From assembly GCF_026651875.1 (NCBI RefSeq), contig NZ_CP104067.1, forward strand, positions 1,426,001-1,490,000: a DNA stretch of 64,000 nt. Reading direction: 5' to 3'. Of the stretch, positions 9,812-57,775 are shown piece after piece; position 1 is the first letter of the stretch; each line of letters opens with the position of its first letter. Source of the stretch: Alicyclobacillus fastidiosus. GTDB lineage: Bacteria > Bacillota > Bacilli > Alicyclobacillales > Alicyclobacillaceae. A program made the position numbers and the translations under genes. The notes beneath the pieces are model-generated. The model was not told the DNA's origin and did no database searches. It saw only the letters and a program-made list of their open reading frames with translations.

Positions 9812-9821
9812 GGTGAGAGCG

Positions 9822-10727: not shown

Positions 10728-10732
10728 TTTAG

Positions 10733-13026: not shown

Positions 13027-13030
13027 TTAG

Positions 13031-13052
13031 AAGCCCCCACGTGGGGCTTTTT
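13031..13052 (+). terminator. Intrinsic terminator after the first GH4 gene
   Basis: AAGCCCC (13031-13037) and GGGGCTT (13043-13049) form a 7-bp stem with a 5-nt loop, followed by T residues to 13052. It sits 5 nt past the GH4 stop and only 19 nt before the next start, so it probably attenuates and does not fully end transcription. Confidence 0.75.
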
Positions 13053-13070
13053 GAAAATGGAGTGATTGCT

Positions 13071-14254: not shown

Positions 14255-14288
14255 CCCAACTCGTCAGTGCGAATGAGGAGGATTTCGT

Positions 14289-40334: not shown

Positions 40335-40771
40335 TCGAGGGGCGCGGCGCGGCTGAGTGAATGGTGGTTGAGTAATGAGTTACCGAAGCTCAGCTACGCC
40401 GTGTGCCTCGCGTCTCACCATGCGGGCCGAGCGTCCCTGAACGTAGTTCGACCCGCCCCATCCTTCGCAATTCTCCCTTTCTATCCCCCACGTTCATCCA
40501 TTTCCGATATTGCGAATCATTTCTGGTCCTCGCAAGACGTGCAGTAACTGCAGGTTTAGGATAACGGATATCAACGAACGACGTTTCTCACAAAGGGGAT
40601 GGTCAAATTTCAACAGCCGTAGTAAACGTTATCTTTGAATCCGTCACATAGATGAATGTTCTGCAATGCCGCGTGAAAGGGCTTCCATATTTTATTCGGC
40701 ATCACAGATCAGGCGGCTTGGATGAACATGCATTGCGTGACCATTCCCCGCAGTGGGAGATACGTCGATGG
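40335..40771. other. Intergenic stretch after proA
   Basis: About 440 bases. Open frames here lack ribosome sites and resemble no family. Part of it may be a 5' extension of the following MFS gene (from ATG 40652), but the region between 40652 and 40772 has no conserved features. I see no clear terminator for proBA. Confidence 0.35.
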
Positions 40772-42022
40772 ATGGGGGTTTGGGGGTTGGATCGTCGCCG
40801 ATTGATTATCGTGACCATACTGTGTGGTCTGGGGTATATGGTGTATTCGGTGGATCGTATGGTGATGTCGTCATCTGTCGGCCTCATCGCGAAGCAATTC
40901 CACATGACAAAGGGCACCTCGGGGCTTATGATGAGCTCGTTCTTTTATGGATTTGTCGTACTTCTGTTCATCGGCGGGATTTTGTCTGATAAGTTCACCG
41001 GCAAGACGGTACTCATTTGGGGATTGTCTCTTTTTTCACTTGCGACGGGGGCGACGGGTCTCGCCACTGGGTTTGGAACGATGTTGGTGTATCGGATTAT
41101 CACCGGCCTTGGCGAAGGGCTGTTCTGGCCGGCCGCCTCGCAGGAAATCACATTGGTCTCCACCGCGAAACAGCGCACCACGGTGATGTCGATTTACTGG
41201 TCCGGATATCCGATCGGTGGATTTTTGGGGACCTGGTTGGGCGCCCTGATTGGCTCACATGACGGTTGGCGCCCTGTGTTCATCGTGGCGTTTGTCCTCG
41301 GGGCCATCGTCGCCGTGCTCTACGGTGTACTCGTGCGCAGCGATGGGGCGGGAAAGACCGCAAACAGCGCGAAAGTACAACTCACAGAGGGTGTTCCTAT
41401 CCGCGAGATCTTTCGTCAGCCGACGGTCGTGGCGCTCGGCGTCTTCTATCTGTTGCTGATGTCTGGTTGGTGGATTGTGCTCTTGTGGGCTCCAACGTTC
41501 ATGGAGGCACAGAAGCACATGAGCTTGACGACGGGCGGCACGATTGCCAGCCTCATGGGGTTGTCCGGGGCCCTGGGTGGCATTTTGATTGGCCGCTACT
41601 GTGACAAAGGGGCCATCGGGCGACGTAAAGTCGTGCTTGTGTGGATCTCGATTCTCACGGCCGTGATGATGGCGTTGATGGTCGTTGGATTGCCGACGTG
41701 GCTGTTGGTGATTGTGGTGCTCCTGCTCGGCTTCTTTGGTTACCCCATCACGCCGGTGGTGCTCTCCATCGCTTCGCAGGTGGTACCTGAGGGCGTTGCG
41801 GGTTCGGCGATTGGGTTCGTCATGAACGTCGGGATGCTGGCCGGCGCTATCACACCGGCCCTCGCAGGATTTTTGCAGGAGAACGTGGCCATGTCGACCG
41901 TCTGGATTTTAGCCGCTGTGCTGCAATTGATCAGTTGCTTGGCACTTTTGTTTACCGGGGTGTTGCGCAGCGCCAAGTCGTCGGATCACGTGGGACATTC
42001 CGCAGACACACCGGCGCGCTGA
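40772..42022 (+). CDS. MFS transporter of the glycerate-directed cassette
   Basis: A 416-aa carrier with twelve likely membrane segments and the hexuronate/sugar-acid-like pattern MVYSVDRMVMSSSVGLI in helix 1 and GGILSDKFTGK in the first loop; a GEGLFWPAASQE segment resembles anion:cation symporters for sugar acids. I chose ATG 40772 (GGGAG about 11 nt upstream); an in-frame ATG at 40652 adds 40 residues that are not conserved-looking. It precedes an AraC regulator and a sugar catabolic operon, so it likely imports the sugar or sugar acid. Confidence 0.8.
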   Translation: MGVWGLDRRRLIIVTILCGLGYMVYSVDRMVMSSSVGLIAKQFHMTKGTSGLMMSSFFYGFVVLLFIGGILSDKFTGKTVLIWGLSLFSLATGATGLATGFGTMLVYRIITGLGEGLFWPAASQEITLVSTAKQRTTVMSIYWSGYPIGGFLGTWLGALIGSHDGWRPVFIVAFVLGAIVAVLYGVLVRSDGAGKTANSAKVQLTEGVPIREIFRQPTVVALGVFYLLLMSGWWIVLLWAPTFMEAQKHMSLTTGGTIASLMGLSGALGGILIGRYCDKGAIGRRKVVLVWISILTAVMMALMVVGLPTWLLVIVVLLLGFFGYPITPVVLSIASQVVPEGVAGSAIGFVMNVGMLAGAITPALAGFLQENVAMSTVWILAAVLQLISCLALLFTGVLRSAKSSDHVGHSADTPAR

Positions 42023-42214: not shown

Positions 42215-43024
42215 ATGGGACTCCGCGATGTGCCGTTGGCGAAAAGTGGAATACTACTGTATGAGAGTAAGCATTTGCAGGGCGAGGTCGTCACCCCGCA
42301 TCACCACACAATCTATCAAATTCTGTACATCCTGAGCGGCGATGGCATCATTACGCTTCATAACCAGCCGTATGAAGTCACGAATGACCAGATGGTGCTG
42401 ATTGCCCCGTACACGGAACACGCGGTCTACGCCCGCTCGCGCATGACTCTCCTGGTCTTAGCATTTGGTGACTTCCTCGAAGATCTCACTGGCACCAAGG
42501 AACTGTTCTCCACGGCGTTTCGAACGTCGAAATATCACATGCTGGACTCGATGTCCGCGAATGAACTGCGCGACTCGTTTCGGAAAATCCTTTACGAGCA
42601 GAGTTTACAAGGCAGCTTTTCCGATTTGGCGATTCGCGGGCACTTGCTGCACGTGCTGTTGACGCTCACGAGATCTTTTGAAGTCGAGCATTTTCGCGAC
42701 TCAAATGCACATCGAGCGAACGTGTTGCGCCACTATATCGAGGCGCACTACTACCGCCGGTTATCCGCGGAGGATCTCGCGGGCCGCCTGAAGATTACCT
42801 CGCGGCACATGAACGCCATCTTCAAGGAGCAGTTTCACATTACCCCGATTCAATATCTGAACGACGTGCGGGTGAAGCACGCAAAGGCACTGCTCCTTGG
42901 CACGGACAAGGAGATTATCTCGATTTGCTTCGAGGTTGGGTTTGAGACGATTTCGACGTTTTATCGGGCGTTCAAACGCAAGGTAGGAATGTCGCCGCAA
43001 CAGTTTCGAAAGGCGCCATCGTGA
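42215..43024 (+). CDS. AraC-family regulator with N-terminal cupin
   Basis: A 269-aa regulator. The N-terminal sugar-sensing cupin contains TPHHHTIYQILYILSGDG (residues about 27-44). The C-terminal double HTH (about 170-265) reads LSAEDLAGRLKITSRHMNAIFKEQFHITPIQYLNDVRVKHAKALL and ISICFEVGFETISTFYRAFKRKVGMSPQQFR. It lies between the MFS gene and the Gfo/Idh-DUF993 operon and most likely activates them in response to the imported sugar. Confidence 0.9.
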   Translation: MGLRDVPLAKSGILLYESKHLQGEVVTPHHHTIYQILYILSGDGIITLHNQPYEVTNDQMVLIAPYTEHAVYARSRMTLLVLAFGDFLEDLTGTKELFSTAFRTSKYHMLDSMSANELRDSFRKILYEQSLQGSFSDLAIRGHLLHVLLTLTRSFEVEHFRDSNAHRANVLRHYIEAHYYRRLSAEDLAGRLKITSRHMNAIFKEQFHITPIQYLNDVRVKHAKALLLGTDKEIISICFEVGFETISTFYRAFKRKVGMSPQQFRKAPS

Positions 43025-43200: not shown

Positions 43201-44349
43201 ATGCGAAAAATCGGGATCATCATGAACGGTGTCACAGGCAGAATGGGCACCTATCAGCACTTAGAGCGCTCAATTGCAGCGATTCGTCAACAGGGGGGCC
43301 TCGCCTTGCCGGATGGCGAGGTACTGATGCCGGATCCGATTTTGGTTGGGAGAAATGAGCACAAGTTGCGCGCATTGGCTGATAAATACGGCATTCTGCG
43401 GTGGAGCACGAACCTCGAGGAGTGTCTGGCCAATCCGGATTATGAAATCTACTTTGACGCGCAGACGACCTTGCGCCGGGCCGAAGGTGTGCGGGCGGCA
43501 ATCGAGGCGGGCAAGCACATCTATTGTGAGAAGCCGACCGGCGTCAACCTTGAGGAGGCGTTAAGTCTCGCCCGACTCGCGGATCAAAAGGGCGTCAAAC
43601 ACGGCGTGGTGCAAGACAAGTTGTTTCTACCAGGCCTCTTGAAGTTGCAGAAACTCGTCGAGACGGGGTTCTTTGGCCGCATTCTCTCGATTCGCGGAGA
43701 GTTTGGGTACTGGGTGTTTGAAGGAGAGCACGAGGCCGCCCAGAGACCGTCTTGGAACTACCGCAAGGAAGAGGGCGGCGGCATCATCGTCGACATGCTC
43801 TGCCACTGGCGCTATGTGCTCAGCAACATTTTCGGCGACGTGAAAGCGGTATCTTGCTACGGTGCCACGCATATTCCACAGCGCGTCGACGAGGATGGGG
43901 AAGTCTACGACGCGACGGCCGACGACGCCGCGTATACGACGTTTCAATTGGAGGGCGGCATCGTAGCGCACATCAATTCGTCGTGGTGCGTCCGGGTCGA
44001 CAGAGGCGAGTTGTTCGAACTGCAGGTGGATGGAACGGAAGGGAGTGCGGTGGCGGGGCTTCGCAACTGTAAAGTACAGCATCGGGCGCATACGCCAAAA
44101 GCGGTTTGGAACCCGGATGTACCAGACCAGAACGACTACACGGCCCAATGGGTGACCGTGCCTACCATCGACGAGCCAGACAACGCGTTCAAAGTGCAGT
44201 GGGAGATGTTTTTGAAGCACGTCGTCCTCGGCGCGCCGTTCAAGTTTGATCTCCTCGAAGGCGCCAAAGGCGTGCAACTGGCACAAATCGGCTTGCAGTC
44301 GTGGGAAGAACGCCGCTGGTTAGACGTCCCGACGCTGACGCTCGACTGA
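43201..44349 (+). CDS. Gfo/Idh/MocA-family oxidoreductase (sugar cassette)
   Basis: A 382-aa dehydrogenase-fold protein. It begins IGIIMNGVTGRMG (NAD(P)-binding, an unusual VTGRMG end) and has the signature HIYCEKPTG near residue 102. It differs from the phthalate-type protein at 34906. GGAGGGGG lies 7 nt before ATG 43201. Together with the DUF993 and TIM-barrel genes directly behind it, it most likely oxidises a sugar or cyclitol to a keto form. Confidence 0.85.
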   Translation: MRKIGIIMNGVTGRMGTYQHLERSIAAIRQQGGLALPDGEVLMPDPILVGRNEHKLRALADKYGILRWSTNLEECLANPDYEIYFDAQTTLRRAEGVRAAIEAGKHIYCEKPTGVNLEEALSLARLADQKGVKHGVVQDKLFLPGLLKLQKLVETGFFGRILSIRGEFGYWVFEGEHEAAQRPSWNYRKEEGGGIIVDMLCHWRYVLSNIFGDVKAVSCYGATHIPQRVDEDGEVYDATADDAAYTTFQLEGGIVAHINSSWCVRVDRGELFELQVDGTEGSAVAGLRNCKVQHRAHTPKAVWNPDVPDQNDYTAQWVTVPTIDEPDNAFKVQWEMFLKHVVLGAPFKFDLLEGAKGVQLAQIGLQSWEERRWLDVPTLTLD

Positions 44350-44368
44350 CATTCTAGGAGGGGTACAT

Positions 44369-45529
44369 GTGCAAACTCTACTGCTACCTAGGTCCTTTGG
44401 CGGCGTCGAGGCGTACCGCATGGTTGGTACGCCAATTGAGACGGCGCCGTGCCAGCCGGCCACGCGTCGAATCGCCTACGCGGCTGCACACGTGGTAGCC
44501 GATCCGCTGGCCGATATCGATCCTTCCTCGGCCACCGCAGTGGACTGGGATTCTACACTCGCGTTTCGCCATCACCTCTGGTCACTTGGCCTGTCCGTCG
44601 CGGAGGCGATGGATACGGCGCAACGCGGCATGGGCCTCGGCTGGGAGACGACGAAAGAACTGATATCGCGCTCCGTACGCGAGGCGAGGGCGTGCGGCGG
44701 AGCGATTGCCTGCGGGGCGGGGACGGATCAACTGGATGGGAGCGCTGCGCACACGCTAAAGGACGTGCAGCGAGCGTACGAGGAACAGTGTGAGTTCATC
44801 GAGGGGACGGGCGGCCGCGTCATCCTCATGGCCAGCCGGGCACTGGCTGCCGTCGCCAAGGCGCCAGAGGATTATGCGGCCGTGTACGATGCTATCCTCT
44901 CGCAGGTCTCTCAGCCTGTAATCCTGCACTGGCTCGGCGACATGTTCGACCCCGCGCTCACCGGCTACTGGGGCCATCTCGACGTAGCGGCCGCCATGCA
45001 AGTGTGCCTAGACGTCATTCACCGGCACGCCGCGAATATCGACGGCATCAAAATTTCGCTCCTCGACGCGGACTTAGAAGTGCAGATGCGCCGCATGCTA
45101 CCAGATGGCGTCAAGATGTACACGGGGGACGACTTCAATTACCCAACGCTCATCTTGGGGGAGGACGGTGCGTACAGCCACGCGCTGTTGGGCATTTTCG
45201 ACGCCATCGCGCCGGCGGCTGCACAGGCCCTGCGGGCATTGGACGCGGGGGATGAGGCTCGCTTCCGGGAGATCATGGATCCGACAGTTGGGCTCAGTCG
45301 GCACATTTTCCAGGCACCGACGCGGTTTTATAAGACTGGCGTCGTGTTTCTCGCCTACTTGAACGGTCACCAGGACCACTTCCGGATGGTGGGGGGGCTA
45401 GAGAGCATGCGCTCGCTCGTCCATCTGTCGGAACTGTTCGTCCTCGCAGACCGGGCTGGGCTCTTGGCAGATCCGGACGCCGCCTCGGAACGCATGCGCC
45501 GCGTCCTGGCGATTGGAGGCGTGGTGTAA
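44369..45529 (+). CDS. DUF993 family protein (dihydrodipicolinate synthase-like)
   Basis: A 386-aa protein, matching DUF993 in overall order. It is thought to be distantly related to the DapA/aldolase TIM barrel: GGRVILMASRALAAV, ILHWLGDMFDPALTGYWG, and the C-terminal IKISLLDADLEVQMRRMLPDGVKMYTGDDFNYP, with a Lys in IKIS a candidate Schiff-base residue. GTG 44369 follows AGGAGGGG. It starts 20 bp after the oxidoreductase and its stop overlaps the next ATG by one base, so the three are translated as a unit. No reaction is established; a retro-aldol cleavage would suit the cassette. Confidence 0.8.
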   Translation: MQTLLLPRSFGGVEAYRMVGTPIETAPCQPATRRIAYAAAHVVADPLADIDPSSATAVDWDSTLAFRHHLWSLGLSVAEAMDTAQRGMGLGWETTKELISRSVREARACGGAIACGAGTDQLDGSAAHTLKDVQRAYEEQCEFIEGTGGRVILMASRALAAVAKAPEDYAAVYDAILSQVSQPVILHWLGDMFDPALTGYWGHLDVAAAMQVCLDVIHRHAANIDGIKISLLDADLEVQMRRMLPDGVKMYTGDDFNYPTLILGEDGAYSHALLGIFDAIAPAAAQALRALDAGDEARFREIMDPTVGLSRHIFQAPTRFYKTGVVFLAYLNGHQDHFRMVGGLESMRSLVHLSELFVLADRAGLLADPDAASERMRRVLAIGGVV

Positions 45530-46338
45530 TGGATACTCGGTTTCTCAGCTTAAATCAGATCACGACGAATGGATGGACCGTCCAACAGGCGGTCGACGGT
45601 TGTGCACGAGCAGGTATCCAGTGGATCGGCCTCTGGCGACACAAAGTCGCAGAGACTGGGTTGCAGGCGAGCGCTCGCATCGTCCAGGACGCGGGGCTTC
45701 GGGTTTCCGGACTGTGCCGGGGTGGCATGTTTGCGGCGGGCACGAAGCTCGAGCGGGCGGCCCGCATCGACGACAACCGCCGCGCCATCGAAGAGGCGGC
45801 AGAGCTTGGGACGGATGTCCTCGTCCTCGTCTGTGGCCCGGCCGAGGATTGTACGCTCGACGATGCCCGGTCGATGGTCGAGGAGGGAATCGAACAGCTC
45901 GTTCCGTACGCGCTTGAACGCGGTGTGAAGCTCGGTATCGAACCGCTGCACCCGGTGTTTGCGGCAGACAGATCTGTCATCTCCACGCTCGGTCAGGCGA
46001 ACGACATCGTCCTGCGGCTGGGGTCAAGCCAGGTCGGCGTCGTCATCGACATCTATCACGTCTGGTGGGATCCGAAGCTGTATGAGGAAATTGCGAGATC
46101 CGCCGGGCACATTTTTGGCTTCCACGTCAACGATTGGCTGGCGCCAGTCGAGAACGCGATGATGTCGCGTGGCATGATGGGCGACGGCTGCGTGGAAAAC
46201 GCACGGATTCGGCGCGCAGTCGAAGCGGCTGGATATCATGGTCCGGTCGAGGTCGAGATATTCAACCAAAAAATCTGGGATACCGCATATGATGAAATTT
46301 TGGTACAAATGAAACAACGGTTTGAAACGGAAGTTTAG
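45529..46338 (+). CDS. Sugar phosphate isomerase/epimerase (AP endonuclease 2-type TIM barrel)
   Basis: A 269-aa xylose-isomerase-like TIM barrel. Metal-binding acidic and His residues can be seen in LGIEPLHPVFAADRSVI, VGVVIDIYHVWWDP and GFHVNDW, with a final Glu in GPVEVEIFN. Family members interconvert keto sugars or epimerise them (as in IolE/IolI- and hydroxypyruvate isomerase-like proteins). The TAATG overlap couples it to DUF993. Confidence 0.85.
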   Translation: MDTRFLSLNQITTNGWTVQQAVDGCARAGIQWIGLWRHKVAETGLQASARIVQDAGLRVSGLCRGGMFAAGTKLERAARIDDNRRAIEEAAELGTDVLVLVCGPAEDCTLDDARSMVEEGIEQLVPYALERGVKLGIEPLHPVFAADRSVISTLGQANDIVLRLGSSQVGVVIDIYHVWWDPKLYEEIARSAGHIFGFHVNDWLAPVENAMMSRGMMGDGCVENARIRRAVEAAGYHGPVEVEIFNQKIWDTAYDEILVQMKQRFETEV

Positions 46339-46468
46339 GGTGCTCGTGTTGGAACGGCGGGGGGGCTGTGACAGGCCATTGCCGTCTCGAGTTTGGTCTT
46401 GCGGCCGCTCGCACGCCGATGCACTCGGCCGTGAATTTCCTTGGCAGACGGAAGGGAGATGCGTGGGT

Positions 46469-47608
46469 GTGAGGGTCGTTATTGCGCCAGATTCGTTCAA
46501 AGGGTCATTGTCCGCACAGCATGTCGCAGCGTCGATTGCAGAGGGCGTCGTAGCCGCGTGCCCCGACGCGCAGGTCCATCTCGTGCCGATTGCAGACGGT
46601 GGTGAGGGGACCGTCGATTGCCTACTCGACGTCGTAGGAGGCGAAGTCGTCACGGTTCCCGTTCACGATCCGCTGGGGCGCCCCATCGACGCCGATTACG
46701 GCGTCCTCCCGGACGGCACCGTCGTCATCGAAGTGGCGTCGGCAGCTGGGCTCACCTTGGTAGCGCAACAGGATAGGGACGTTCTGCGCGGAAACACACA
46801 GGGTCTCGGCGAACTGTTGTGTCACGCGCTCGACGCTGGGCGCACCTCATTTGTGGTCGCCCTTGGCGGCAGTGCCACCAACGATGGCGGAGTGGGCATG
46901 TTATACGCCCTGGGTGCGCGGTTTTACGACGAGGGTGGACACGAGCTCGCCCCCACCCCGGACGCTTGCCGCAGTTTGTGGCGGATTGACCTGTCGCACT
47001 TGCACCCAAAGTTGGCGGATGCCTCGATTCGGGTGGCGTGCGACGTCGCCAATCCACTCTGTGGCGAGCGTGGTGCGACGGCGGTGTATGGGCCGCAGAA
47101 AGGCGTCACGCCTGACCTCATCCCGGTCTTGGACGCCTTCCTCGACCGCTTTGACTCAGTCGTTCACCGCGACTTACATATCTCTATCCGCGACATTCCA
47201 GGTGCAGGTGCCGCGGGCGGGCTGGGAGCTGCATTGGTCGGATTGCTCGGGGCCAAATTGCTCCCCGGCATCGACTTGATTCTTGACCTCATCTCCTTTC
47301 ATACCCGCCTATCAGACGCTGACCTCGTCATTACCGGCGAAGGAAGCACCGATGCGCAGACCGCCAACGGAAAGGCGGTCATGGGTATCGCAAAGCGCGC
47401 CAAGGCCGCCGGTGTGCCTGTATTTTGTCTGTCCGGCAACGTCTCCGCGGAGGCGACAGCCCTGTACGAGCACGGCGTTACGGCGCTGTTCTCCATCACG
47501 CAAGGCCCAATCAGCCTCGGCGATGCGATGAAGTCGACCGGAATCCTGCTGTCGAGAGCCGCGGATGCGGCCGTTCGCGCGTTTCTCGCAGGTCGAATGC
47601 GGGGGTGA
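46469..47608 (+). CDS. Glycerate 2-kinase (GlxK/GarK family)
   Basis: A 379-aa cytoplasmic kinase. The family start VRVVIAPDSFKGSLSAQHVA is followed by IADGGEGTVDCLLD, the core GGSATNDGGVGML, GAGAAGGLGAAL and the ITGEGSTDAQTANGKA loop. GarK-type enzymes make 2-phosphoglycerate from D-glycerate. Start GTG 46469 (AGGGAG 10 nt upstream) was preferred over GTG 46463. Its stop lies inside the first unit of a 13-bp tandem repeat. Confidence 0.9.
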   Translation: MRVVIAPDSFKGSLSAQHVAASIAEGVVAACPDAQVHLVPIADGGEGTVDCLLDVVGGEVVTVPVHDPLGRPIDADYGVLPDGTVVIEVASAAGLTLVAQQDRDVLRGNTQGLGELLCHALDAGRTSFVVALGGSATNDGGVGMLYALGARFYDEGGHELAPTPDACRSLWRIDLSHLHPKLADASIRVACDVANPLCGERGATAVYGPQKGVTPDLIPVLDAFLDRFDSVVHRDLHISIRDIPGAGAAGGLGAALVGLLGAKLLPGIDLILDLISFHTRLSDADLVITGEGSTDAQTANGKAVMGIAKRAKAAGVPVFCLSGNVSAEATALYEHGVTALFSITQGPISLGDAMKSTGILLSRAADAAVRAFLAGRMRG

Positions 47609-47641
47609 GCCGCGCGGGTGAGCCGCGCGGGTGAGCAGGGC
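47603..47641. repeat. 13-bp tandem repeat, three units
   Basis: GGGTGAGCCGCGC occurs at 47603-47615 and 47616-47628, then GGGTGAGCAGGGC at 47629-47641 (two changes), followed by a partial GGGTGG. The first unit includes the glycerate kinase stop codon. It marks the junction to a region of decayed genes. Confidence 0.85.
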
Positions 47642-47909
47642 GGGTGGCCCTGCCTGCCCCTCTCCCCGAGTCACCCTAACGTTGTTCGTCTCTATCGTGG
47701 TGTTGGTGTGTTTACTCGTCACCGGGCTGTTGATCGGGCAACGGAAAATGCGCACCACGCGGACAAATTTGACGGATAAGGCGATGAACACCGCCAAATT
47801 TGTGGCGAACTCCCCTTTGGTCATCGCGGCGTTGGAAGGGAAGCGCAGCAGGTCCGACGTTGAACCCCTCGCGATGAAAATCCAGGAAATCACCGCCAGC
47901 CTACAATGA
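47631..47909 (+). pseudogene. N-terminal fragment of a DcuS/CitA-type sensor histidine kinase
   Basis: A 92-codon frame ending at 47909. The part from about 47670 encodes one transmembrane helix (LTLFVSIVVLVCLLVTGLLI) and a short extracytoplasmic-like piece (KAMNTAKFVANSPLVIAALEG ... EPLAMKIQEITAS) that matches the start of carboxylate-sensing PAS/CACHE kinases of the DcuS/CitA class. The rest of the sensor and the kinase domain are gone. It suggests a lost C4/tricarboxylate sensing system in this cassette. Confidence 0.6.
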
Positions 47910-47947
47910 CTACCAAACGTGAAACCTATCGACACGGAGCCTGCAAA

Positions 47948-48127
47948 AACGGGGAGTTTTGGAGGTGTCACGCACTTTATCACGAATATGCAACCGTGAC
48001 AGCGCCGACCCTGATCGGTTTTCTCGTTTTTGCCGACGGATATCATGCCATGTTTGTCGCATCTGCCGTCGCGTCGGTCATCGGAATGCTCGCGATGCTG
48101 TTCGTCAAACCAGGAAAAAGAGTGTAG
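47948..48127 (+). pseudogene. C-terminal remnant of an MFS transporter, with internal frameshift
   Basis: Across two frames, the sequence reads GSFGGVTHFITNM then TVTAPTLIGFLVFADGYHAMFVASAVASVIGMLAMLFVKP, which is the layout of helices 11-12 of an MFS protein (FGG..nF..N.., then the last two helices). A frame change lies near 47990 and the upstream part of the gene is missing. Together with the kinase fragment it shows deletion decay between glycerate kinase and the next dehydrogenase. Confidence 0.6.
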
Positions 48128-48257
48128 TTCGCATGGTCGGTTGAACGTGACTCGATGAAGCGTGCAGTCGTTGGGATGCTTCCTATGCACGTCGTTCCGC
48201 CATCGGGTATCTGGAAGGGTAAATCGGAGAGCGAGAACCAGACTGGAGGGTCCAACC

Positions 48258-49319
48258 ATGGACAAGTTCGAAATCGCCGTCATCCCCGGTGACGGCATTG
48301 GAATGGAAGTCGTGCCTGCCGCGATGCGCGTACTCGACGCGGCGGCGGATATTCACGGTGGATTGTCGTTTGAGTGGACGACGTTTCCATGGAACTGCGA
48401 GTACTATCTCAAACACGGCACGATGATGCCGGACGATGGCATCGCCACGCTGCGCGGATTTCATCAAATCTTCCTGGGTGCAGTGGGCATGCCAAATCTC
48501 GTGCCGGATCACGTCTCGCTCTGGGGCCTGCTCATCAAAATCCGCCGCGAGATGCAACAGTCGGTCAACGTGCGACCTGCCAAACTCCTCAATGGTTTGA
48601 CATCGCCGCTGCGCAACCCGTCGGCGTTTGATTTGGTCGTCGTGCGCGAGAATTCGGAAGGCGAGTATTCCGATATCGGCGGGCGCATTCATCAAGGCTC
48701 TGACGAGATGGCCATTCAGAGTGCCGTGTTTACGCGCAAAGGAACGGAGCGCGTTATGCGATACGCGTTCCAACTCGCCGAAAAACGCCGCAAACACGTC
48801 ACGAGCGCGACGAAATCAAACGGAATCTCTCACAGCATGCCGTTTTGGGACGAAGTATTTAGAGATGTCCTCAAAGACTATCCCGAATGTGCGACAATCA
48901 GTCACCACATCGATGCACTGGCGGCATTTTTGGTGATGAAACCACACGCGTTCGACGTGATCGTCGCCTCGAATCTGTTTGGGGACATCCTGACGGATCT
49001 CGGTGGGGCCATCATGGGAAGTATCGGCGTGGCGCCGGCGGCGAACCTCAACGTCGAACGAACGTACCCATCGATGTTTGAACCGGTTCACGGGTCGGCG
49101 CCCGATATCGCAGGGAAGGGGCTCGCCAACCCACTCGGTCAAATCTGGACCGGTAAAATGATGCTCGATTTCATGGGCTATGAAGAGCTCGGAAATCTCG
49201 TCTTGGACGCGATGGAGGCGACCCTCGCCGCGGGTGTCAAAACGGGTGATATCGGCGGTGTATCGAGTACTTCCGAGGTCACAAACACGATCATCGACTA
49301 TTTGCGGAGGCGGACTTAA
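48258..49319 (+). CDS. Tartrate dehydrogenase/decarboxylase or D-malate dehydrogenase
   Basis: A 353-aa NAD-dependent beta-hydroxyacid oxidative decarboxylase of the isopropylmalate/isocitrate dehydrogenase family. It has IAVIPGDGIGMEVVPAA (5-21), substrate residues in LWGLLIKIRR and VVVRENSEGEYSDIGG, and the C-terminal EPVHGSAPDIAGKGLANP signature. The branch carrying VRENSEGEYS with Leu/Trp near the substrate loop matches tartrate dehydrogenase/DmlA. Such enzymes can turn meso-tartrate into D-glycerate plus CO2, linking it to the glycerate kinase upstream. GGAGGG precedes ATG 48258. Confidence 0.87.
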   Translation: MDKFEIAVIPGDGIGMEVVPAAMRVLDAAADIHGGLSFEWTTFPWNCEYYLKHGTMMPDDGIATLRGFHQIFLGAVGMPNLVPDHVSLWGLLIKIRREMQQSVNVRPAKLLNGLTSPLRNPSAFDLVVVRENSEGEYSDIGGRIHQGSDEMAIQSAVFTRKGTERVMRYAFQLAEKRRKHVTSATKSNGISHSMPFWDEVFRDVLKDYPECATISHHIDALAAFLVMKPHAFDVIVASNLFGDILTDLGGAIMGSIGVAPAANLNVERTYPSMFEPVHGSAPDIAGKGLANPLGQIWTGKMMLDFMGYEELGNLVLDAMEATLAAGVKTGDIGGVSSTSEVTNTIIDYLRRRT

Positions 49320-49670: not shown

Positions 49671-49711
49671 GCTTATCGTATCAAAATCTATAGACCTTGG
49701 GGGTGATCGAC

Positions 49712-50917
49712 ATGGCCCAAAAGCAGACTCCGAAATACATGCAATTGAAAGAAGAAGTTGTCTCGTGGGTGAAAACGGGACGTTATCCCCCGGGCGCTCA
49801 ATTGCCTACGGAATTGGAATTGGCGGAGTTGTTCAACGTGAGCAGGCAGACCGTGCGGCAGGCGCTAGCAGACTTGGTGCGCGAACAGTTGTTGTCACGG
49901 GTCCAAGGTCGTGGAACCTTTGTCGCCGAGCGGAGTCTGGAACCGGTTACAACGCCGTCGGTTGTACAGGGGCCGAACAAGATCATCGGTGTGGTCACAA
50001 CCTATATCTCGGACTATATTTTTCCGGAAATTATCCGCGGTTTGGAATACCAACTCGGTGCCCTTGGGTATTCATTGCTCCTGCTGAACACACAGAACAA
50101 CTTTGACTTGGAACGCCGCGCCTTACAGAGGATCATCGATACCAATGTGACCGGACTCATTGTGGAACCGACGAAAAGTGCGATCGACAATCCGAACTTA
50201 GACATGTATTTAACCTTAATTGCACAAAAGACCCCGATGATTATGCTGCATGCCTCCTATATGGAACTCGACGTCGCCACCGTGCGCATCGATGATGTCG
50301 AGGCGGTGTCGCGCCTGACCCAAACCGTGATCGACTTTGGTCATCACGCCATCGGCGGGCTGTTCAAGGACGATGACATTCAAGGAAAATTGCGCATGCG
50401 GGGATATCTGCGGACGCTCGGCCAAAATAATGTGGATATCCACCCAGCCTTTATTAAGCGCTATAACACTGAGGACCTGACAGATGTCGTCCGCGCGTAT
50501 GTCGAGACGGTTGAATCCACGCCGGTGGAACAGCGTCCGACGGCTGTCGTTTGCTATAATGACGAGACGGCGATGAAGCTTATGGAAGCGCTGAAATCGA
50601 GCGGCATTGGGGTGCCGGAAGACATTTCCGTCGTCGGCTTCGACAACTCCCAGTACTCGCACCTATGCGATCCCAAGTTGACCACCGTCGATCATCCTAA
50701 GTTCAATATGGGCATCACCGTCGCCGACTTGATCATCGACGTCATCTCTGAAGTGCACAGCGGGCAGCCAAAGAGAATTCGGGACGTCATCATGGACTGT
50801 GAAGTGATTACACGGCCGTCGTTGAAGGATTTGCGCACGAATCGTCCCGCGCCTGAAGCATTCTCTAAAGAAGTCGAGGCTGACTCCGTGGCTTCGTCAC
50901 ACGTGGACCGAGGCTGA
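49712..50917 (+). CDS. araR: AraR, arabinose-responsive repressor (GntR DNA-binding plus LacI-type effector domain)
   Basis: A 401-aa regulator. Residues about 1-70 are a GntR-type winged HTH (PKYMQLKEEVVSWVKTGRYPPGAQLPTELELAELFNVSRQTVRQAL) and about 90-375 a LacI/GalR-type sugar-binding domain (IIGVVTTYISDYIFPEIIRGLE ... VVGFDNSQYSHLCDPKLTTVDHPKFNMG). This fusion is the hallmark of AraR. Start ATG 49712 follows GGGGGTGATC. The C-terminus is about 25 residues longer than usual. It is flanked by its own operator and by five AraR boxes in the window, and it controls the arabinan-degrading genes downstream. Confidence 0.95.
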   Translation: MAQKQTPKYMQLKEEVVSWVKTGRYPPGAQLPTELELAELFNVSRQTVRQALADLVREQLLSRVQGRGTFVAERSLEPVTTPSVVQGPNKIIGVVTTYISDYIFPEIIRGLEYQLGALGYSLLLLNTQNNFDLERRALQRIIDTNVTGLIVEPTKSAIDNPNLDMYLTLIAQKTPMIMLHASYMELDVATVRIDDVEAVSRLTQTVIDFGHHAIGGLFKDDDIQGKLRMRGYLRTLGQNNVDIHPAFIKRYNTEDLTDVVRAYVETVESTPVEQRPTAVVCYNDETAMKLMEALKSSGIGVPEDISVVGFDNSQYSHLCDPKLTTVDHPKFNMGITVADLIIDVISEVHSGQPKRIRDVIMDCEVITRPSLKDLRTNRPAPEAFSKEVEADSVASSHVDRG

Positions 50918-51053
50918 CCTTCAGCCGCGGGTTCACGCTAGCAGGTACCGCTCGAGCCACCACCCCCCGGCGGCCGAGTCAAACTAAGCTGTCGTGGCAT
51001 CTGTCAGGGAGCTGACTGTGTCACGTCAGGTTGCAGCTTTCCCCTTCATATCA

Positions 51054-51069
51054 TATGGTACGTACAAAT
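51054..51069. promoter_or_regulatory. AraR operator, upstream copy before abfA
   Basis: TATGGTACGTACAAAT matches 13 of 16 bases of the AraR box. It lies 234 bp upstream (centre to centre) of the second operator at 51288, a distance that would allow DNA looping. Confidence 0.65.
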
Positions 51070-51287
51070 ATGGTCCGTCGGTGGAATCCCGCCTTTGCGT
51101 CGCTGCGGACGCCTTGGATCATTTTGGCGACCCGGTGTCTTGGTTACGCGGTTGAACTGACGTCGCAACGGTGGGCAAGTGTACGGTGCTGCTATATCTA
51201 TCGACGGTACAACACAATCGAACGGCACAGGTTCGATCTTCTGATGATGCCCCATACAAACCAAATTCTCGTAAAAATTTTCTGTAA

Positions 51288-51303
51288 AATTGTATGTACG
51301 AAT
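51288..51303. promoter_or_regulatory. AraR operator next to the abfA promoter
   Basis: AATTGTATGTACGAAT matches 13 of 16 bases. It ends one base before a perfect TTGACA, so AraR bound here would block RNA polymerase. Confidence 0.7.
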
Positions 51304-51304
51304 A

Positions 51305-51333
51305 TTGACATCGTCCTATTGCAGTGACATTAT
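51305..51333 (+). promoter_or_regulatory. abfA promoter
   Basis: TTGACA (51305-51310), 17 bp, CATTAT (51328-51333). The preceding operator and the downstream abfA gene agree with an arabinose-inducible promoter. Confidence 0.65.
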
Positions 51334-51434
51334 TGGGGTGCGTTTAAATATTCAAACAATTCGTTCATACATCTCGGGTGCCTACCAATTCAATCGTGAG
51401 GAAGAACAGTTGAATCAGTTGGGGGTGGCGAACA

Positions 51435-53085
<1,651 letters not shown>

Positions 53086-53135
53086 GCAGAGCTGACCGAG
53101 GCCGATACAGTCGCGCCCCTGGTTGGTACAGCGAA

Positions 53136-53178
53136 ACAAGTCCGCATCAGGTGCCTGAAGGCCTTTATGCGGACTTGT
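53136..53178 (+). terminator. Long hairpin after abfA
   Basis: ACAAGTCCGCAT (53136-53147) and ATGCGGACTTGT (53167-53178) pair perfectly over 12 bp with a 19-nt loop. No T-run follows, so it is a likely transcript end or stability element. Confidence 0.6.
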
Positions 53179-53424
53179 CATGTCTGATACTGTTGTGGAC
53201 CTCGGGATATGTTCTTTCATTTCAACCTCGCATTTACTACATATGTCACTCTCCCCGCTGTGGATTGACAGAATGGTCATCACAAAATGTACGAACAAAA
53301 AATGCCTTGTCTCCAATCATATTTTAGGACGCAATAGAATAGGTATGTAATTTTAAAGCGTAATCTTGTGTATACCTGGCATAAACATCGATTTTTTGCC
53401 GTCAATCCTATCCCTTATCTGTAC
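53179..53424. other. AT-rich gap before the ara operon promoter
   Basis: About 250 bases without a gene. I see no clear element apart from AT-rich stretches leading into the AraR operator at 53425. Confidence 0.4.
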
Positions 53425-53440
53425 ATTTGTACGTACAAAA
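53425..53440. promoter_or_regulatory. AraR operator next to the araB promoter
   Basis: ATTTGTACGTACAAAA matches 15 of 16 bases of the AraR box. It ends three bases before the -35 of the araB operon promoter, the same arrangement as before abfA. Confidence 0.88.
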
Positions 53441-53443
53441 ATA

Positions 53444-53472
53444 TTGACTTTGAAATGTACGGAGGGTATTCT
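53444..53472 (+). promoter_or_regulatory. araBAD-type operon promoter
   Basis: TTGACT (53444-53449), 17 bp, TATTCT (53467-53472). It starts about 300 bp before araB. Confidence 0.65.
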
Positions 53473-53523
53473 TAATTCAAAATTCTTAAAATGTATTGCG
53501 ATGTAAGGGTGTGCGGACGAACT

Positions 53524-53539
53524 GCATGTCCGTACAAAT
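53524..53539. promoter_or_regulatory. AraR operator, downstream copy
   Basis: GCATGTCCGTACAAAT matches 12 of 16 bases. Its centre is 99 bp beyond the centre of the operator at 53425, so the promoter lies between two AraR sites and could be closed by looping. Confidence 0.6.
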
Positions 53540-53596
53540 ATTTAAGGAGAGACGGAGGTCAGGCCTGCGCTTTGGGACGTGGCGGTTCACTTTCCA

Positions 53597-53610
53597 TGTA
53601 AGCACTTTCT
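53597..53610. promoter_or_regulatory. cre-like box in the araB leader
   Basis: TGTAAGCACTTTCT matches 12 of 14 consensus positions. Downstream of the promoter, it would act as a CcpA roadblock, adding catabolite repression to AraR control. Confidence 0.5.
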
Positions 53611-53771
53611 AAAAACCGACTTATTGAATTGTTCTGAGTGTTGATATGAACAAAGCGATGAACGAACGCATGTGAACTTCGGCAAGATAAACATCATTAA
53701 AATGCTCAGTTGAGTGAACAGTGCTCACGTGGATTCGCGCTTGGCGAATCCCGGCTCGCAAGGGGTGGAGA

Positions 53772-55461
53772 ATGGTGGCCTATTCGATTGGCGTTGACTA
53801 TGGTACCGGCTCTGGAAGAGTCGTGTTGTTAAATTTAGATGAGGCCACAGAGGTGGCTGTTGCTGTCATTCCCTATGGACATGGCGTGATCGATACAATT
53901 TTTCCGACGACGGGTGAGAAATTACCTCCTGATTGGGCACTGCAACACCCGATGGACTATTTGGACGTGTTGCATCGTGGCATCCCCGCTGTATTGGCAG
54001 AGACGGGCGTTTCCCCCAGGGACGTGATTGGCATCGGCATCGACTTCACGTCGTGCACGGTGCTCCCCGTAACGCAGACGGGGGAACCTCTTTGCACGAT
54101 GGTGGAGTGGGCAGAGCACCCGCACGCGTGGCCAAAACTGTGGAAGCATCACGCGGCGCAGCCGATTGCAGACAGAATGAACGACCTTGCGCGCGAGCGC
54201 AATGAAGATTTTCTCACCCGGTACGGAGGGCGGATTTCTTCGGAATGGTATTTTCCCAAGTTGATTGAAGTGTTCGAAGATGATCCGGACGTGTACCAGG
54301 CCTGTGACGCGTTTGTCGAGGCGACAGACTGGATCGTCTTACCTGACCGGAAATCTTCGCCGAAATTCGTGTACGGCCGGCTACAAAGCACTCTGGTCAG
54401 AGGACGACGGATTGCCCTCCAAGGACTTCTTTCAAGCCGTAAACGCGGGCTTCGCTCATCCGTTGGAAAAGCTAGGGGACGTATTCTACCCGCTTGGAAC
54501 TAGGGCTGGGCGGTTAAAGGAGAGCGTGGCCGAACAGTTGGGATTGGGCACACACGTGGCGGTCGCGGTAGGCAACGTCGATGCGATGGTGGCCGTACCC
54601 AGTGTCGGTGTGAGCCATCCTGGGTCGTTGGTGATGGTGATGGGGACGTCGATTTGTCACCTGACGGTATCCCACGAGGAAGTCCGCCTGCCAGGGATTA
54701 CTGGAGTCGTCAAAGGCGGTGCACTTCCAGGGTTGTACGCCTATGAGGCCGGGCAAGCGGCCGTCGGTGACATGTTCGAATGGTTTGTGAAAGCTTGCGT
54801 ACCGCAAGGGTATGTGGACGAAGCGTCGCAGCGCGGCGTCTCCATTTATGAAGTGCTGGAAGAAGAGGCGGCGCGCCTGTCCCCAGGTCAAAATGGTCTC
54901 ATCGCCTTCGATTGGTGGAATGGGAACCGCAGTATTCTCGGGGACGCTGATGTGTCAGGCATGATCTTTGGCTTGACGCTCGCTACATCCACTGCCGACG
55001 TGTATCGGGCACTGCTCGAGGCGACGGCGTACGGCACGCGACGCATCATCGACAACTTTACGGAGCACGGGATTGCCATCGATGAATTGGTCGCTTGTGG
55101 TGGGCTCCCCCAAAAGAGCCCGTTACTGATGCAGATCTACGCGGACATTTGCGGTTTGCCAGTGGTCGTACGCGATTCGAGGGAGATCCCCGCGCGGGGC
55201 GCGGCGATGTTTGGGGCGGTTGCGGCCGGTGCAAAGGCGGGCGGATTCGACTCTATCGATTCTGCCAGCGCTGTCCTGGCGGCGCCGATTCAAAGGACAT
55301 ATCAGCCCAATGCCGACGCTCGTGAAGCATACGACCGACTCTATCAGATATATCGAGAACTTCATGAATATTTAGGAGAAAACAACGTAGATTTACTGCA
55401 CCGTCTGAAACAAGTCCGCGTGCGTTCGCTGAACAACGCGTTGCTCAATCAATTGGTATAG
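53772..55461 (+). pseudogene. araB: Ribulokinase, disrupted by a one-base insertion
   Basis: Two frames together make a ribulokinase of about 562 aa (FGGY family, converts L-ribulose to L-ribulose-5-phosphate). Part 1, from ATG 53772 (AGGGG 6 nt upstream), reads VAYSIGVDYGTGSGRVVLL ... EATDWIV; part 2 reads LTGNLRRNSCTAGYKALW ... to 55461 and includes VGNVDAMVAVP and the CGGLPQKSPLLMQIYAD motif near the end. One T too many at 54339-54340 separates the parts; removing it gives DWIVYLTGNLRRN. If real, arabinose could be isomerised but not phosphorylated unless a second kinase exists; if an error, the gene is intact. Confidence 0.85.
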
Positions 55462-55477
55462 CCTGAGAGGACGATGA

Positions 55478-56965
55478 ATGGTGGAGAGGAATAACGTGTT
55501 TTGGTTTGTCACAGGAAGTCAGCATCTGTACGGCCCTGAAACACTCAGTCAAGTGGAGAACCAGTCCCGCGTCATCGCGAACGAACTAGATCAGTGCGAG
55601 TCGATTCCCTTTCCCGTGATCTACAAGCCAGTCGTGACCACCTCCGAGTCGATTCACCGCGTCATGCTGGAGGCGAACGCAGACGAGTCCTGTGCCGGCG
55701 TCATCACCTGGATGCACACGTTTTCGCCCGCAAAAATGTGGATTGCAGGTCTCAATGCGCTCCAGAAACCGCTGTTGCATCTGCATACGCAGTTCAACCG
55801 GGACATCCCGTGGGACGCTATCGACATGGATTTTATGAATCTGAATCAATCGGCGCACGGCGACAGGGAGTACGGTTTTCTGGCCGCCCGCATGGGCGTG
55901 GCACGAAAAGTGGTCGTCGGCCATTGGGCAGACGAGGAGTTGCAGCGACGCGTCGGGGCTTGGACCAGGACAGCCGCCGGGTACGTGGAAGGTCGTCAAC
56001 TCAAAGTGGCCCGCTTTGGCGACAACATGCGTGAGGTTGCCGTTACCGACGGCGATAAGGTGGAGGCACAGGTCCGGTTTGGGTGGTCCGTGAATGGGTT
56101 CGGTGTAGGTGACTTAGCCGAACGTATCCACGACGTCACGAACGGCGACCTCGACGACCTCCTAGCGCTGTACACAGAGACGTACGAGATTTCCACAGAT
56201 GTTCGAAACGACCCGCAGAAATGGGGGGCCATTCGCGAGCAGGGGCGGATCGAATTGGGGATTCGGTCATTCCTCCAATCTGGTGGGTTCGGGGCGTTTA
56301 CGACGACGTTCGAGGACCTGCACGGCATTGAGCAACTCCCAGGCCTTGCCGTCCAGCGCCTGATGGCCGACGGCTATGGTTTTGGTGGGGAAGGCGATTG
56401 GAAGACGGCGGCGTTGACCAGGGTGATGAAGGTGATGGCCGGGATGGAAGGCACCTCGTTTATGGAGGATTATACCTACCACATGGAACCCGGAAACGAG
56501 CTGATCTTAGGCGCGCACATGTTAGAAGTGTGCCCCACAATCGCGCAGTCGCGCCCTCGTATCGAAGTGCATCCGCTCTCGATAGGCGGCAAAAAAGACC
56601 CTGCCCGCCTGGTGTTCGACGGGCGAAGTGGGCCCGCCGTCGTCGCATCGCTGGTCGATCTCGGCACGCGCTTCCGCTTGATCGTCAATGAGGTGGACGC
56701 CGTTACATCACAGAGATCTCTGCCCAAGTTGCCAGTCGCTCGAGTGCTCTGGAAACCACAACCTTCGCTTAGAGATTCGGCAGAAGCTTGGATATATGCG
56801 GGCGGAGCGCACCATACGGTGTTTTCGTACAACGTGACGGCGGAGCAGTTAGTGGACTGGGCCCAGATGACAGGCATCGAGTGTGTCCTCATCAACCGGG
56901 ATACATCGGTTCTCACACTGCGGAATTCACTGGCTGTGAACGAGTACGCCTGGCGCTTGCGTTGA
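55478..56965 (+). CDS. araA: L-arabinose isomerase
   Basis: A 495-aa metal-dependent enzyme interconverting L-arabinose and L-ribulose. It carries [12 protein letters not shown] near the start, [23 protein letters not shown], and [26 protein letters not shown], which contain the Mn-binding Glu/His residues. ATG 55478 follows GAGAGG and lies 16 bp after araB. Confidence 0.95.
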
Positions 56966-57008
56966 TCGGCGGGGGGCCTTTTCGCGACGGAATTCAGGGG
57001 GGATTCGA

Positions 57009-57698
57009 ATGCTCGTAGAATTGAAGGAACAGGTGTTGGAGGCCAACTTGCAATTGCCGCGGCACGGCTTGGTGAAGTTTACGTGGGGGAATGTGAGCGG
57101 AATCGATAGGGCCAGTGGGCTGTTTGTCATCAAACCGAGTGGCGTTCCATATGAGCAGTTGAAGGTGGACGATTTAGTGGTGGTCGATTTGGAGGGGAAT
57201 GTTGTCGAGGGGGATTTAAACCCTTCCTCCGACACGCCCACGCACCGAGTCCTCTACCAGGCGTTCCCCGAAATCGGGGGGATTGTCCATACGCACTCTC
57301 CATGGGCGACGATTTGGTCACAAGCTGGCCGGTCGATACCGGCCCTGGGAACCACGCACGCGGATTACTTCTATGGAAGTATTCCGTGTACGCGCGAAAT
57401 GACAGACGACGAAATCAACGGGGACTACGAAGTGGAGACGGGCAACGTCATCGTCGAAACCATGCAGCAGTCCGATCCATCCGCGATGCCAGGCGTTCTC
57501 GTCCACAGCCACGCACCGTTCTGTTGGGGCAAAGACGCCATTGACGCTGTGCACAACGCAGTGGTGCTAGAAGAGGTCGCCAAACTCGCGTACCGATCGG
57601 TATCGCTCAACGCGTCCATCGAGGCGATGCAGCCGGCTCTCCTCGACAAACACTACCTTCGTAAACATGGCGTCCACGCGTACTATGGTCAGCGCTAG
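57009..57698 (+). CDS. araD: L-ribulose-5-phosphate 4-epimerase
   Basis: A 229-aa class II aldolase-fold enzyme that converts L-ribulose-5-phosphate to D-xylulose-5-phosphate. Zinc ligands are His94 and His96 in [12 protein letters not shown] and a His in [11 protein letters not shown] (about residue 167). The substrate phosphate is bound by GNVSGID and [10 protein letters not shown]. It follows araA by 43 bp and completes the arabinose pathway. Confidence 0.95.
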
Positions 57699-57775
57699 GG
57701 GACCCCGACACCCGCAGCGCCAGGCAACTGGGCACTGTCGAGGAGTGCGATAAATACGATTGAGGATGTGATGGA

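Follow-up and report, generated by a model that had tools for sequence, protein, structure and literature searches.

A conserved Gfo/Idh, DUF993 and TIM-barrel gene unit in Alicyclobacillus fastidiosus and its possible route to glycerate

What does a DUF993 protein do, and could the genes around it supply glycerate? The question is raised by a locus in Alicyclobacillus fastidiosus, contained in the window analysed here, a stretch of 64,000 nt (NZ_CP104067.1, positions 1,426,001-1,490,000). An earlier note on this DNA proposed that a dehydrogenase and an isomerase prepare a sugar or cyclitol, that DUF993 cleaves it, and that the product enters metabolism as glycerate, with a tartrate dehydrogenase as a further source. 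It described DUF993 as having no established reaction; likewise, a search of the literature by family (PF06187), structures, locus tags and operon terms returned nothing on its function.

The locus and the conserved three-gene unit

The genes considered are as follows.

40652-42022, + strand: MFS carrier; the nearest NCBIfam model is a D-galactonate transporter, with a score below its cut-off
42215-43024, + strand: AraC-family regulator (Pfam scan), with relatives in Bacillota loci
43201-44349, + strand: Gfo/Idh/MocA-type dehydrogenase (Gfo)
44369-45529, + strand: DUF993 protein (PF06187), a predicted DHDPS-superfamily TIM barrel
45529-46338, + strand: xylose-isomerase-like (AP_endonuc_2) TIM barrel (TIM)
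46463-47608, + strand: glycerate kinase (GK) of the PF02595/TIGR00045 family, above the TIGR00045 cut-off
47671-47893, + strand: remnant of a sensor histidine kinase gene (its 5' part), 84% identical to 13138-13360 of the sister locus L097
47928-48131, + strand: remnant of an MFS carrier gene (its 3' end), 87% identical to 16791-16995 of L097
48258-49319, + strand: tartrate/D-malate-type dehydrogenase (TDH), above the TIGR02089 and NF006048 cut-offs

The gene positions given in the earlier note are borne out, as is its description of the first three enzyme genes as translationally tied: the gap between Gfo and DUF993 is 19 bp (previously given as 20), a TAATG overlap joins DUF993 and TIM, and a GGAG-type site precedes the start of each. 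The GK gene, whose GTG start at 46463 was placed by comparison with L097, follows TIM after 124 bp and so lacks translational coupling to it. The sister locus, from the same genus, is 86% identical; all seven genes are open in the comparison, with dN/dS values of 0.065-0.114. The MFS gene is syntenic there and gives 0.089, computed from 40730, the start used by L097.

The genes around DUF993 were located by tblastn in 173 loci. A Gfo gene stands no further than 6 kb from DUF993 in 155 of these, and a TIM gene in 165; both are on the same strand and within 4 kb in 89 of 108 groups, and the order is Gfo-DUF993-TIM in 88 of those 89. The distance matrices correlate with r of 0.72-0.77, as against 0.10 or less in 500 permutations, a comparison made without species-tree control. 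The linkage is far above chance, and the three genes form a real, old and dedicated conserved unit. The earlier note had proposed such a comparison of clusters, and had named a lack of linkage to the partners in other genomes as a refutation; the linkage holds elsewhere. Loci with the trio occur in Bacillota, Chloroflexota, Actinomycetes, Proteobacteria, Gemmatimonadota and Acidobacteriota, although for the last two the loci are few or come from metagenome-assembled records. DUF993 is present in 88 of 296 sampled genomes of the Streptomyces class and in 53 of 248 of the Harenicola family (Rhodobacterales). This is a three-enzyme unit for which no reaction was found, kept together over several phyla and frequent in certain of the groups sampled.

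Three alternative oxidative front ends accompany DUF993: Gfo/Idh; an SDR with an acyl-CoA-dehydrogenase-like protein; and an SDR with a GMC oxidoreductase. By type, 233 loci divide into 183 Gfo-type, 28 CoA-type, 13 GMC-type and 9 others. The existence of three front ends narrows the shared intermediate on which DUF993 must act.

Carriers and regulators vary more. Only L013, L097, L098 and an Erwinia locus (L084) have strong relatives of the window MFS protein next to the trio, and this protein is likely to be the uptake carrier of the module in this genus. The AraC protein, a module partner in Bacillota, is probably the activator of the operon. The earlier note's inclusion of both in the cluster is correct for the window but does not extend to a constant association, as many other loci have LacI or TetR regulators instead. 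A Pfam tally covering 185 of 285 selected neighbour ORFs gave scattered transporters and oxidoreductases and, among the families listed, no diagnostic substrate gene.

Fold and conserved residues of DUF993 and its partners

The DUF993 protein matches PF06187 with 627 bits (cut-off 24) over profile positions 2-382 of 382, and the PF00701 model is unmatched in the Pfam scan. In a single profile-profile comparison with a four-sequence DHDPS profile, the two families align with an E-value of 5.9e-6 and a probability of 85%. K228 falls on the Schiff-base lysine of DHDPS and H187 on the equivalent of its catalytic Tyr133. The structure model (pLDDT 88.4) shows a (beta/alpha)8 fold like that of DHDPS, with K228 placed inside strand 224-230, the sixth. 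A Foldseek search with the model ranks DHDPS (E 5e-10, TM 0.84 by target) next after 4dnh, the solved structure of SMc04132 from Sinorhizobium meliloti 1021, which belongs to the same family (63% identity) and was deposited without a function. Residues D82, T83, Q85, R86, H187, W188, K228, D254, D255 and K322 are present in 234 of 234 DUF993 sequences, covering all operon types. With K228 invariant and aligned with the DHDPS lysine, the protein has the equipment that a Schiff-base enzyme should have, in line with the role assigned to it earlier.

By sequence and fold, DUF993 belongs to the DHDPS class I aldolase superfamily as a divergent member, with K228 as the predicted Schiff-base lysine. 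It shares the TIM barrel and the strand-6 lysine with the DHDPS/N-acetylneuraminate lyase proteins (PF00701, including KDG aldolase); in contrast to these, the chain is longer, H187-W188 stands on strand 5 in place of the tyrosine, and D82-T83-A-Q85-R86 follows strand 2 in place of GTTGE. The GTTGE sequence, the carboxylate-binding motif of DHDPS, and the strand-5 tyrosine, both features of DHDPS proper and N-acetylneuraminate lyase, are absent from DUF993. Since DUF993 does not keep the carboxylate motif, pyruvate chemistry of the known kind cannot be assumed for it. The DHDPS fold includes dehydratases as well as aldolases.

In the Gfo protein, the residues that we take to bind the nucleotide are G10, G13-R14 and G16, followed by G50-R51, and those that we take to be catalytic are K111 (in EKP), D198 and H202. 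Its solved relative, 3oqb, is labelled merely 'Oxidoreductase'. The TIM protein is probably an isomerase or epimerase. E138, D174, H177, D202, E241 and E243 occur in 90 of 90 sequences; position 199, an expected metal ligand, has H in 53 sequences and Q in the other 37. Its solved relatives are 7vpf, 3qc0 and 3ju2, the last (SMc04130 of S. meliloti) matching with 1.6e-71. Structures have thus been solved for relatives of all three trio proteins, under general names. The adjoining tags SMc04130, SMc04132 and SMc04133 suggest that S. meliloti has the same cluster, in which SMc04133, an oxidoreductase, is presumably the Gfo protein; among the searched papers, SMc04132 and SMc04133 were named in one table passage only.

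Described levoglucosan, C-glycoside and inositol pathways pair Gfo/Idh oxidation with a xylose-isomerase-like TIM enzyme, as the window does, and DUF993 is not known to belong to any of them. The window proteins differ from those of the known pathways in their scores. Gfo gives 65.8 bits against the IolG (inositol 2-dehydrogenase) model, with a cut-off of 355, and 61.1 bits against levoglucosan dehydrogenase (650); TIM gives 42.1 bits against the IolO epimerase (300) and 22.1 bits against hydroxypyruvate isomerase (353.45). These identities, and QuiC, all lie far under cut-off and were rejected, so that no substrate was read from the nearest NCBIfam models.

Glycerate kinase linkage and the proposed pathway

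A GK gene is found at 6 kb or less from DUF993 in 23 of 233 loci (Gfo-type 11/183, CoA-type 5/28, GMC-type 6/13, other 1/9). These kinases come from two unrelated families, and on the DUF993 tree 17 changes account for 20 GK-bearing rows among 144. The Harenicola family has GK in 10 of 40 loci, about 0.15 being expected; a second actinomycete set has it within 6 kb in 0 of 20. Some Rhodobacterales strains (for example G1363, G1516 and G1411) have their sole MOFRL glycerate kinase next to DUF993. In the 210 loci with no GK within 6 kb, the cells may rely on a GK encoded elsewhere; alternatively, glycerate might not be what the pathway generally yields. By distance from DUF993, GK was counted 8 times at 0-3 kb (all on the same strand), 5 times at 3-6 kb and 4 times at 6-9 kb; its presence in the last bin indicates that GK is linked in part to the cluster at large. 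In three different organisms (L024, L096, L119) GK comes after DUF993 with no TIM gene within 6 kb, and in L024 an aldehyde dehydrogenase (ALDH) gene comes after GK, the order expected for conversion of glyceraldehyde to glycerate. Within 7 kb, 4 groups have both ALDH and GK, 3 ALDH only, 9 GK only and 92 neither (p 0.004), with three of the four ALDH queries taken from GK-bearing loci. D-2-hydroxyacid dehydrogenase was also tried as a marker of three-carbon metabolism and dropped, because its counts (3, 3 and 3 in the same bins) do not fall with distance.

Taken with the mapped lysine, the GK linkage gives a concrete prediction for DUF993, a retro-aldolase releasing a three-carbon aldehyde. 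We infer, with a probability of roughly 50%, that the trio is a catabolic module for retro-aldol cleavage of an unphosphorylated polyhydroxy compound, with a three-carbon product passing to glycerate. The AraC protein would turn the genes on in the window and the MFS carrier would import the substrate, an unphosphorylated sugar, cyclitol or sugar acid. Gfo, probably NADP-dependent, would convert a secondary alcohol to a ketone, and the TIM enzyme would act as an isomerase or epimerase on the keto compound or on a product. DUF993 would form a Schiff base through Lys228 and split a C-C bond to give a three-carbon aldehyde, glyceraldehyde being the likeliest, which would be oxidised to glycerate and phosphorylated by GK.

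The non-phosphorylative Entner-Doudoroff pathway offers a parallel. There, a sugar dehydrogenase and an acid dehydratase act first, a DHDPS-fold aldolase cleaves the unphosphorylated C6 compound 2-keto-3-deoxygluconate, and glyceraldehyde passes through glycerate to glycerate kinase. GK is linked to DUF993; in contrast, the usual partners of DUF993 are Gfo/Idh and an isomerase, the carboxylate motif is missing, and the profile comparison places DUF993 in another subfamily than the KDG-type aldolase. No dehydratase family was found among the window cluster proteins in the Pfam scan.

A more tentative extension, which we consider somewhat doubtful, is that a widespread and so far undescribed class of aldolases, with DUF993 as its core, acts on unphosphorylated keto-sugars or keto-cyclitols, with His replacing the DHDPS tyrosine, no pyruvate-type carboxylate site, and three interchangeable oxidative front ends draining to glycerate. 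If so, DUF993 would be a new central node in soil and marine carbohydrate catabolism.

The best-surviving alternative, though an unlikely one, is that DUF993 works as a KDG-dehydratase-like Schiff-base dehydratase or hydro-lyase, or as some other DHDPS-fold enzyme that does not cleave. It would then process a keto sugar acid and yield no three-carbon unit, and GK would serve accessory steps that concern other portions of mixed sugar clusters. Such a reading would accommodate the absence of GK from most loci and the enolase-superfamily-like genes that 42 of 173 loci have within 3 kb of DUF993 (41 from Alphaproteobacteria records or samples, the other, L048, titled Frankia); carboxylates are the substrates of the characterised members of that superfamily. 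It would also fit a second DHDPS-like gene near some DUF993 loci, and the CoA-transferase, enoyl-CoA hydratase and acyl-CoA dehydrogenase of type B loci. However, GK accompanies each of the three oxidative front ends repeatedly, follows DUF993 in the three loci without TIM, and is itself followed by ALDH in L024, all of which speak against it.

The tartrate dehydrogenase and its module

The window TDH scores above the cut-offs of the tartrate dehydrogenase models (578.4 bits, cut-off 470.4; 628.6 bits, cut-off 501), but its place in a DUF993 route, as held by the earlier note, was rejected. One of the 173 loci (L073) has TDH within 6 kb of DUF993; in L097 the match is at 6.2 kb, where TDH closes a complete sensor/regulator/MFS/TDH module and GK sits between the trio and that module. 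Relative to L097, about 3.4 kb is gone from the window between the sensor kinase and MFS remnants. TDH therefore seems to belong to this neighbouring module, partly deleted in the window, and not to that of DUF993. Of the proposed route to glycerate, the TDH part falls away; what stands, as an inference from linkage, is the glycerate end, given the recurrence of GK in many lineages and three operon types. The gene remnants between GK and TDH do not appear in the earlier note.

The window GK is ambiguous evidence for a glycerate route, since it could equally serve the TDH module. On that account, which is improbable and slightly more so than a dehydratase, GK in this genus would take up glycerate made by TDH, and the DUF993 trio would be an independent pathway with another end. 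The intermediate position of GK in L097 and its uncoupled spacing from TIM agree with this, as do the related loci L098 and L013, where the trio lacks GK and TDH is also missing nearby. Against it, of the 13 loci among the 173 that have GK no more than 6 kb away, L097 alone shows a TDH match anywhere in the stretch compared, and the window GK is intact (dN/dS 0.101) despite the loss of most of the TDH module.

Least probable, and by some way, is that the trio serves salvage or detoxification of damaged or unusual sugars (keto-sugars, anhydro-sugars) and not growth: the wide variation in transporters and regulators would suit it, but LacI regulators (62), TetR regulators (47) and tripartite carboxylate carriers (11) lie within 6 kb of DUF993 in the 173 loci, and the frequent presence of such genes points to inducible catabolism.

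The DUF993 gene cluster and its conservation

The gene set read from the sequence in the earlier note was confirmed in full, all on the forward strand of the window (C1:1426001-1490000 of the 6.0 Mb genome):

40652-42022, + strand, MFS carrier
42215-43024, + strand, AraC regulator
43201-44349, + strand, Gfo/Idh oxidoreductase (Gfo)
44369-45529, + strand, DUF993 protein (PF06187)
45529-46338, + strand, AP_endonuc_2 TIM barrel (TIM)
46463-47608, + strand, glycerate kinase (GK)
48258-49319, + strand, tartrate dehydrogenase (TDH)

The tight spacing described there is also present, with 19 bp between Gfo and DUF993 and a TAATG overlap between DUF993 and TIM; the end of TIM lies 124 bp from the start of GK. 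The region 40002-47613 matches the sister locus of the same genus, L097, at 86%, and dN/dS between the two is 0.065-0.114 across the seven cluster genes.

The proposed linkage of Gfo, DUF993 and TIM holds outside the window. Among 173 compared loci (80 from genome contigs, the best 80 of 589; 13 plasmid regions; 80 from whole genomes), Gfo is found no more than 6 kb from DUF993 in 155 and TIM in 165. Grouping at 80% DUF993 identity gave 108 groups; both partners are on the same strand within 4 kb in 89 of these, in the order Gfo-DUF993-TIM in 88 of the 89. The distance matrices of the three families correlate at 0.72-0.77, values that still include a contribution from shared species history, against a permuted maximum of 0.10. 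In a second set of loci, Gfo and TIM were present in 20/20 actinomycete loci, and in 8/40 and 27/40, respectively, of those from the Harenicola family. The trio is a real unit.

DUF993 itself is patchily distributed across the sampled taxa. Counting in each case the centre genome, already known to carry it, DUF993 was found in 3/15 genomes of the window's own genus, 4/398 of its phylum (two of the four being weak and partial), 25/289 of the Rhizobium class, 88/296 of the Streptomyces class, 53/248 of the Harenicola family (Rhodobacterales), 12/47 of the Thermosporothrix class and 1/274 of the Marinobacterium class, the centre genome itself.

Sorting 233 loci (143 groups) by the neighbours of DUF993 gave three operon types. 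Type A (Gfo within 3.5 kb) comprises 183 loci, 182 with TIM; type B (acyl-CoA dehydrogenase or CoA-transferase within 6 kb) 28, with SDR in 25 and TIM in 25; type C (GMC oxidoreductase within 3.5 kb) 13, with SDR in 12 and TIM in one; nine loci remain. DUF993 is the element common to these types, and the oxidising partner varies. Among nearby carriers, some are of sugar type and others of carboxylate type (tripartite, MFS). In L241, the type C locus inspected closely, DUF993 is flanked by a sugar-type ABC carrier, GMC, LacI and GK.

In L087, L094, L095, L096 and many of L209-L245, DUF993 stands amid CoA-transferase/enoyl-CoA hydratase/acyl-CoA dehydrogenase or GMC/SDR operons, which are apparently other pathways with the DUF993 step in common. 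A divergent enolase-superfamily-like protein of ~460-480 aa, with a weak Pfam match or none, adjoins DUF993 in L085 (6417-7850), L092 (5393-6781), L036 (7286-8674) and relatives. A second DHDPS-like protein of ~390 aa lies near DUF993 in L026 (6010-7191) and six more groups, and several of these loci carry a PhyH dioxygenase gene.

Nature of DUF993 and its partners

The DUF993 protein has no match among NCBIfam models, and its sole PDB relative by sequence is 4dnh, the uncharacterised protein SMc04132 of S. meliloti. In a single comparison, a profile of 109 DUF993 sequences aligned over the full length with a DHDPS profile built from four sequences of the window's own genome (E 5.9e-6, probability 85%). 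The alignment places Lys228 at the DHDPS Schiff-base lysine and His187 at the strand-5 tyrosine of DHDPS. In the AlphaFold model (pLDDT 88.4, pTM 0.88) Lys228 lies in strand 224-230, by our count the sixth of the barrel, and Foldseek ranked DHDPS enzymes directly after 4dnh. Residues D82, T83, Q85, R86, H187, W188, K228, D254, D255 and K322 are invariant in 234/234 aligned sequences, across all operon types. DUF993 is thus most likely a Schiff-base former, but with an altered acid/base and carboxylate environment.

No paper on DUF993 or PF06187 was found in a literature search outside most subscription journals, so a published reaction is possible. The locus tags SMc04130-SMc04133 led to one paper, a phaR study, where SMc04132 and SMc04133 appear in a table of changed genes. 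The PDB codes of relatives returned an unrelated match and nothing relevant.

In the TIM partner, E138, D174, H177, D202, E241 and E243 are kept in 90/90 sequences. Such residue sites bind metal in xylose-isomerase-like enzymes; position 199, a further likely ligand, has H in 53 sequences but Q in 37, which leaves metal binding uncertain for part of the family. K111, D198 and H202 of Gfo are likewise kept in 90/90, and the G50-R51 pair that follows its second strand suggests that the cofactor is NADP. A possible hint that the Gfo enzyme uses NADP comes from L090 (10006-13033), where TIM and GK are separated by genes for both transhydrogenase subunits, alpha and beta.

Glycerate kinase, tartrate dehydrogenase and the proposed route

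DUF993 has a GK gene within 6 kb in 23/233 loci (19/143 groups): 11/183 of type A, 5/28 of type B, 6/13 of type C and 1/9 of the others. These kinases come from two unrelated families: MOFRL/DUF4147 accounts for 17 loci and PF02595 for the other 6, all of them type A. A tree was built from 144 DUF993 sequences, 20 of which carry the GK label, and that label requires 17 changes on it; GK-bearing rows were favoured as representatives and the window was entered as GK-bearing. In the second sample, gathered after the GK idea arose, GK was near DUF993 in 0/20 actinomycete loci and in 10/40 of the Harenicola family, one being the L090 place already seen. The 38 genomes that hold these 40 loci total 155.7 Mb and gave 44 MOFRL match rows (~40 genes), from which 0.15 such loci are expected by chance against the 10 observed (Poisson P ~1e-15, the true figure being less extreme given relatedness). 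In three loci, L024, L096 and L119, GK follows DUF993 and no TIM gene lies within 6 kb; L024 also has an aldehyde dehydrogenase after GK, an arrangement that release of glyceraldehyde by DUF993 would predict.

In the most likely scheme, the substrate is oxidised to a ketone and isomerised, DUF993 cleaves it through a Schiff base in a retro-aldol reaction, and the resulting C3 aldehyde is turned into glycerate and then phosphoglycerate. Enzyme families with known chemistry underlie the first and last of these putative steps; we infer the cleavage from fold and gene context.

TDH, which the earlier note had counted into the route, drops out of it: it occurs within 6 kb of DUF993 in only 1/173 loci, and adjoins the module without being a component. 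Tartrate dehydrogenase can produce glycerate, and in L097 GK is placed between the trio and the TDH module; the window's GK may therefore serve either. Between GK and TDH, L097 has three ORFs whose sequences suggest a sensor histidine kinase, a response regulator and an MFS carrier. In the window this interval is a decay scar, at 47609-48257, with two remnants recognised by match to the L097 genes:

47671-47893, start of the sensor kinase gene
47928-48131, end of the MFS carrier gene

Relative to L097, ~3.4 kb is absent between them, and a genome search run without a positive control gave no match to it at other places.

Elsewhere in the window

The region 49697-59734 is a probable arabinose utilisation cluster, including:

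within 49697-59734, GntR-LacI-type regulator (domain scan)
51526, alpha-L-arabinofuranosidase-like ORF (by eye)
57009, class II aldolase/AraD-like
57776, GH127

Also counted in this cluster is a sugar kinase gene at 53721-55461, beside arabinose genes and probably araB, which seems to be broken into two ORFs that overlap in different frames, a split put down to a frameshift or assembly error. The second ORF carries an FGGY_C domain; the first, assigned by eye, matched nothing in Pfam at E 1e-10. An ABC permease gene and two GH4 glycosidase genes (11713-13026 and 14289-15608) occupy 8912-15608, followed by an IS110-type transposase at 16548-17801.
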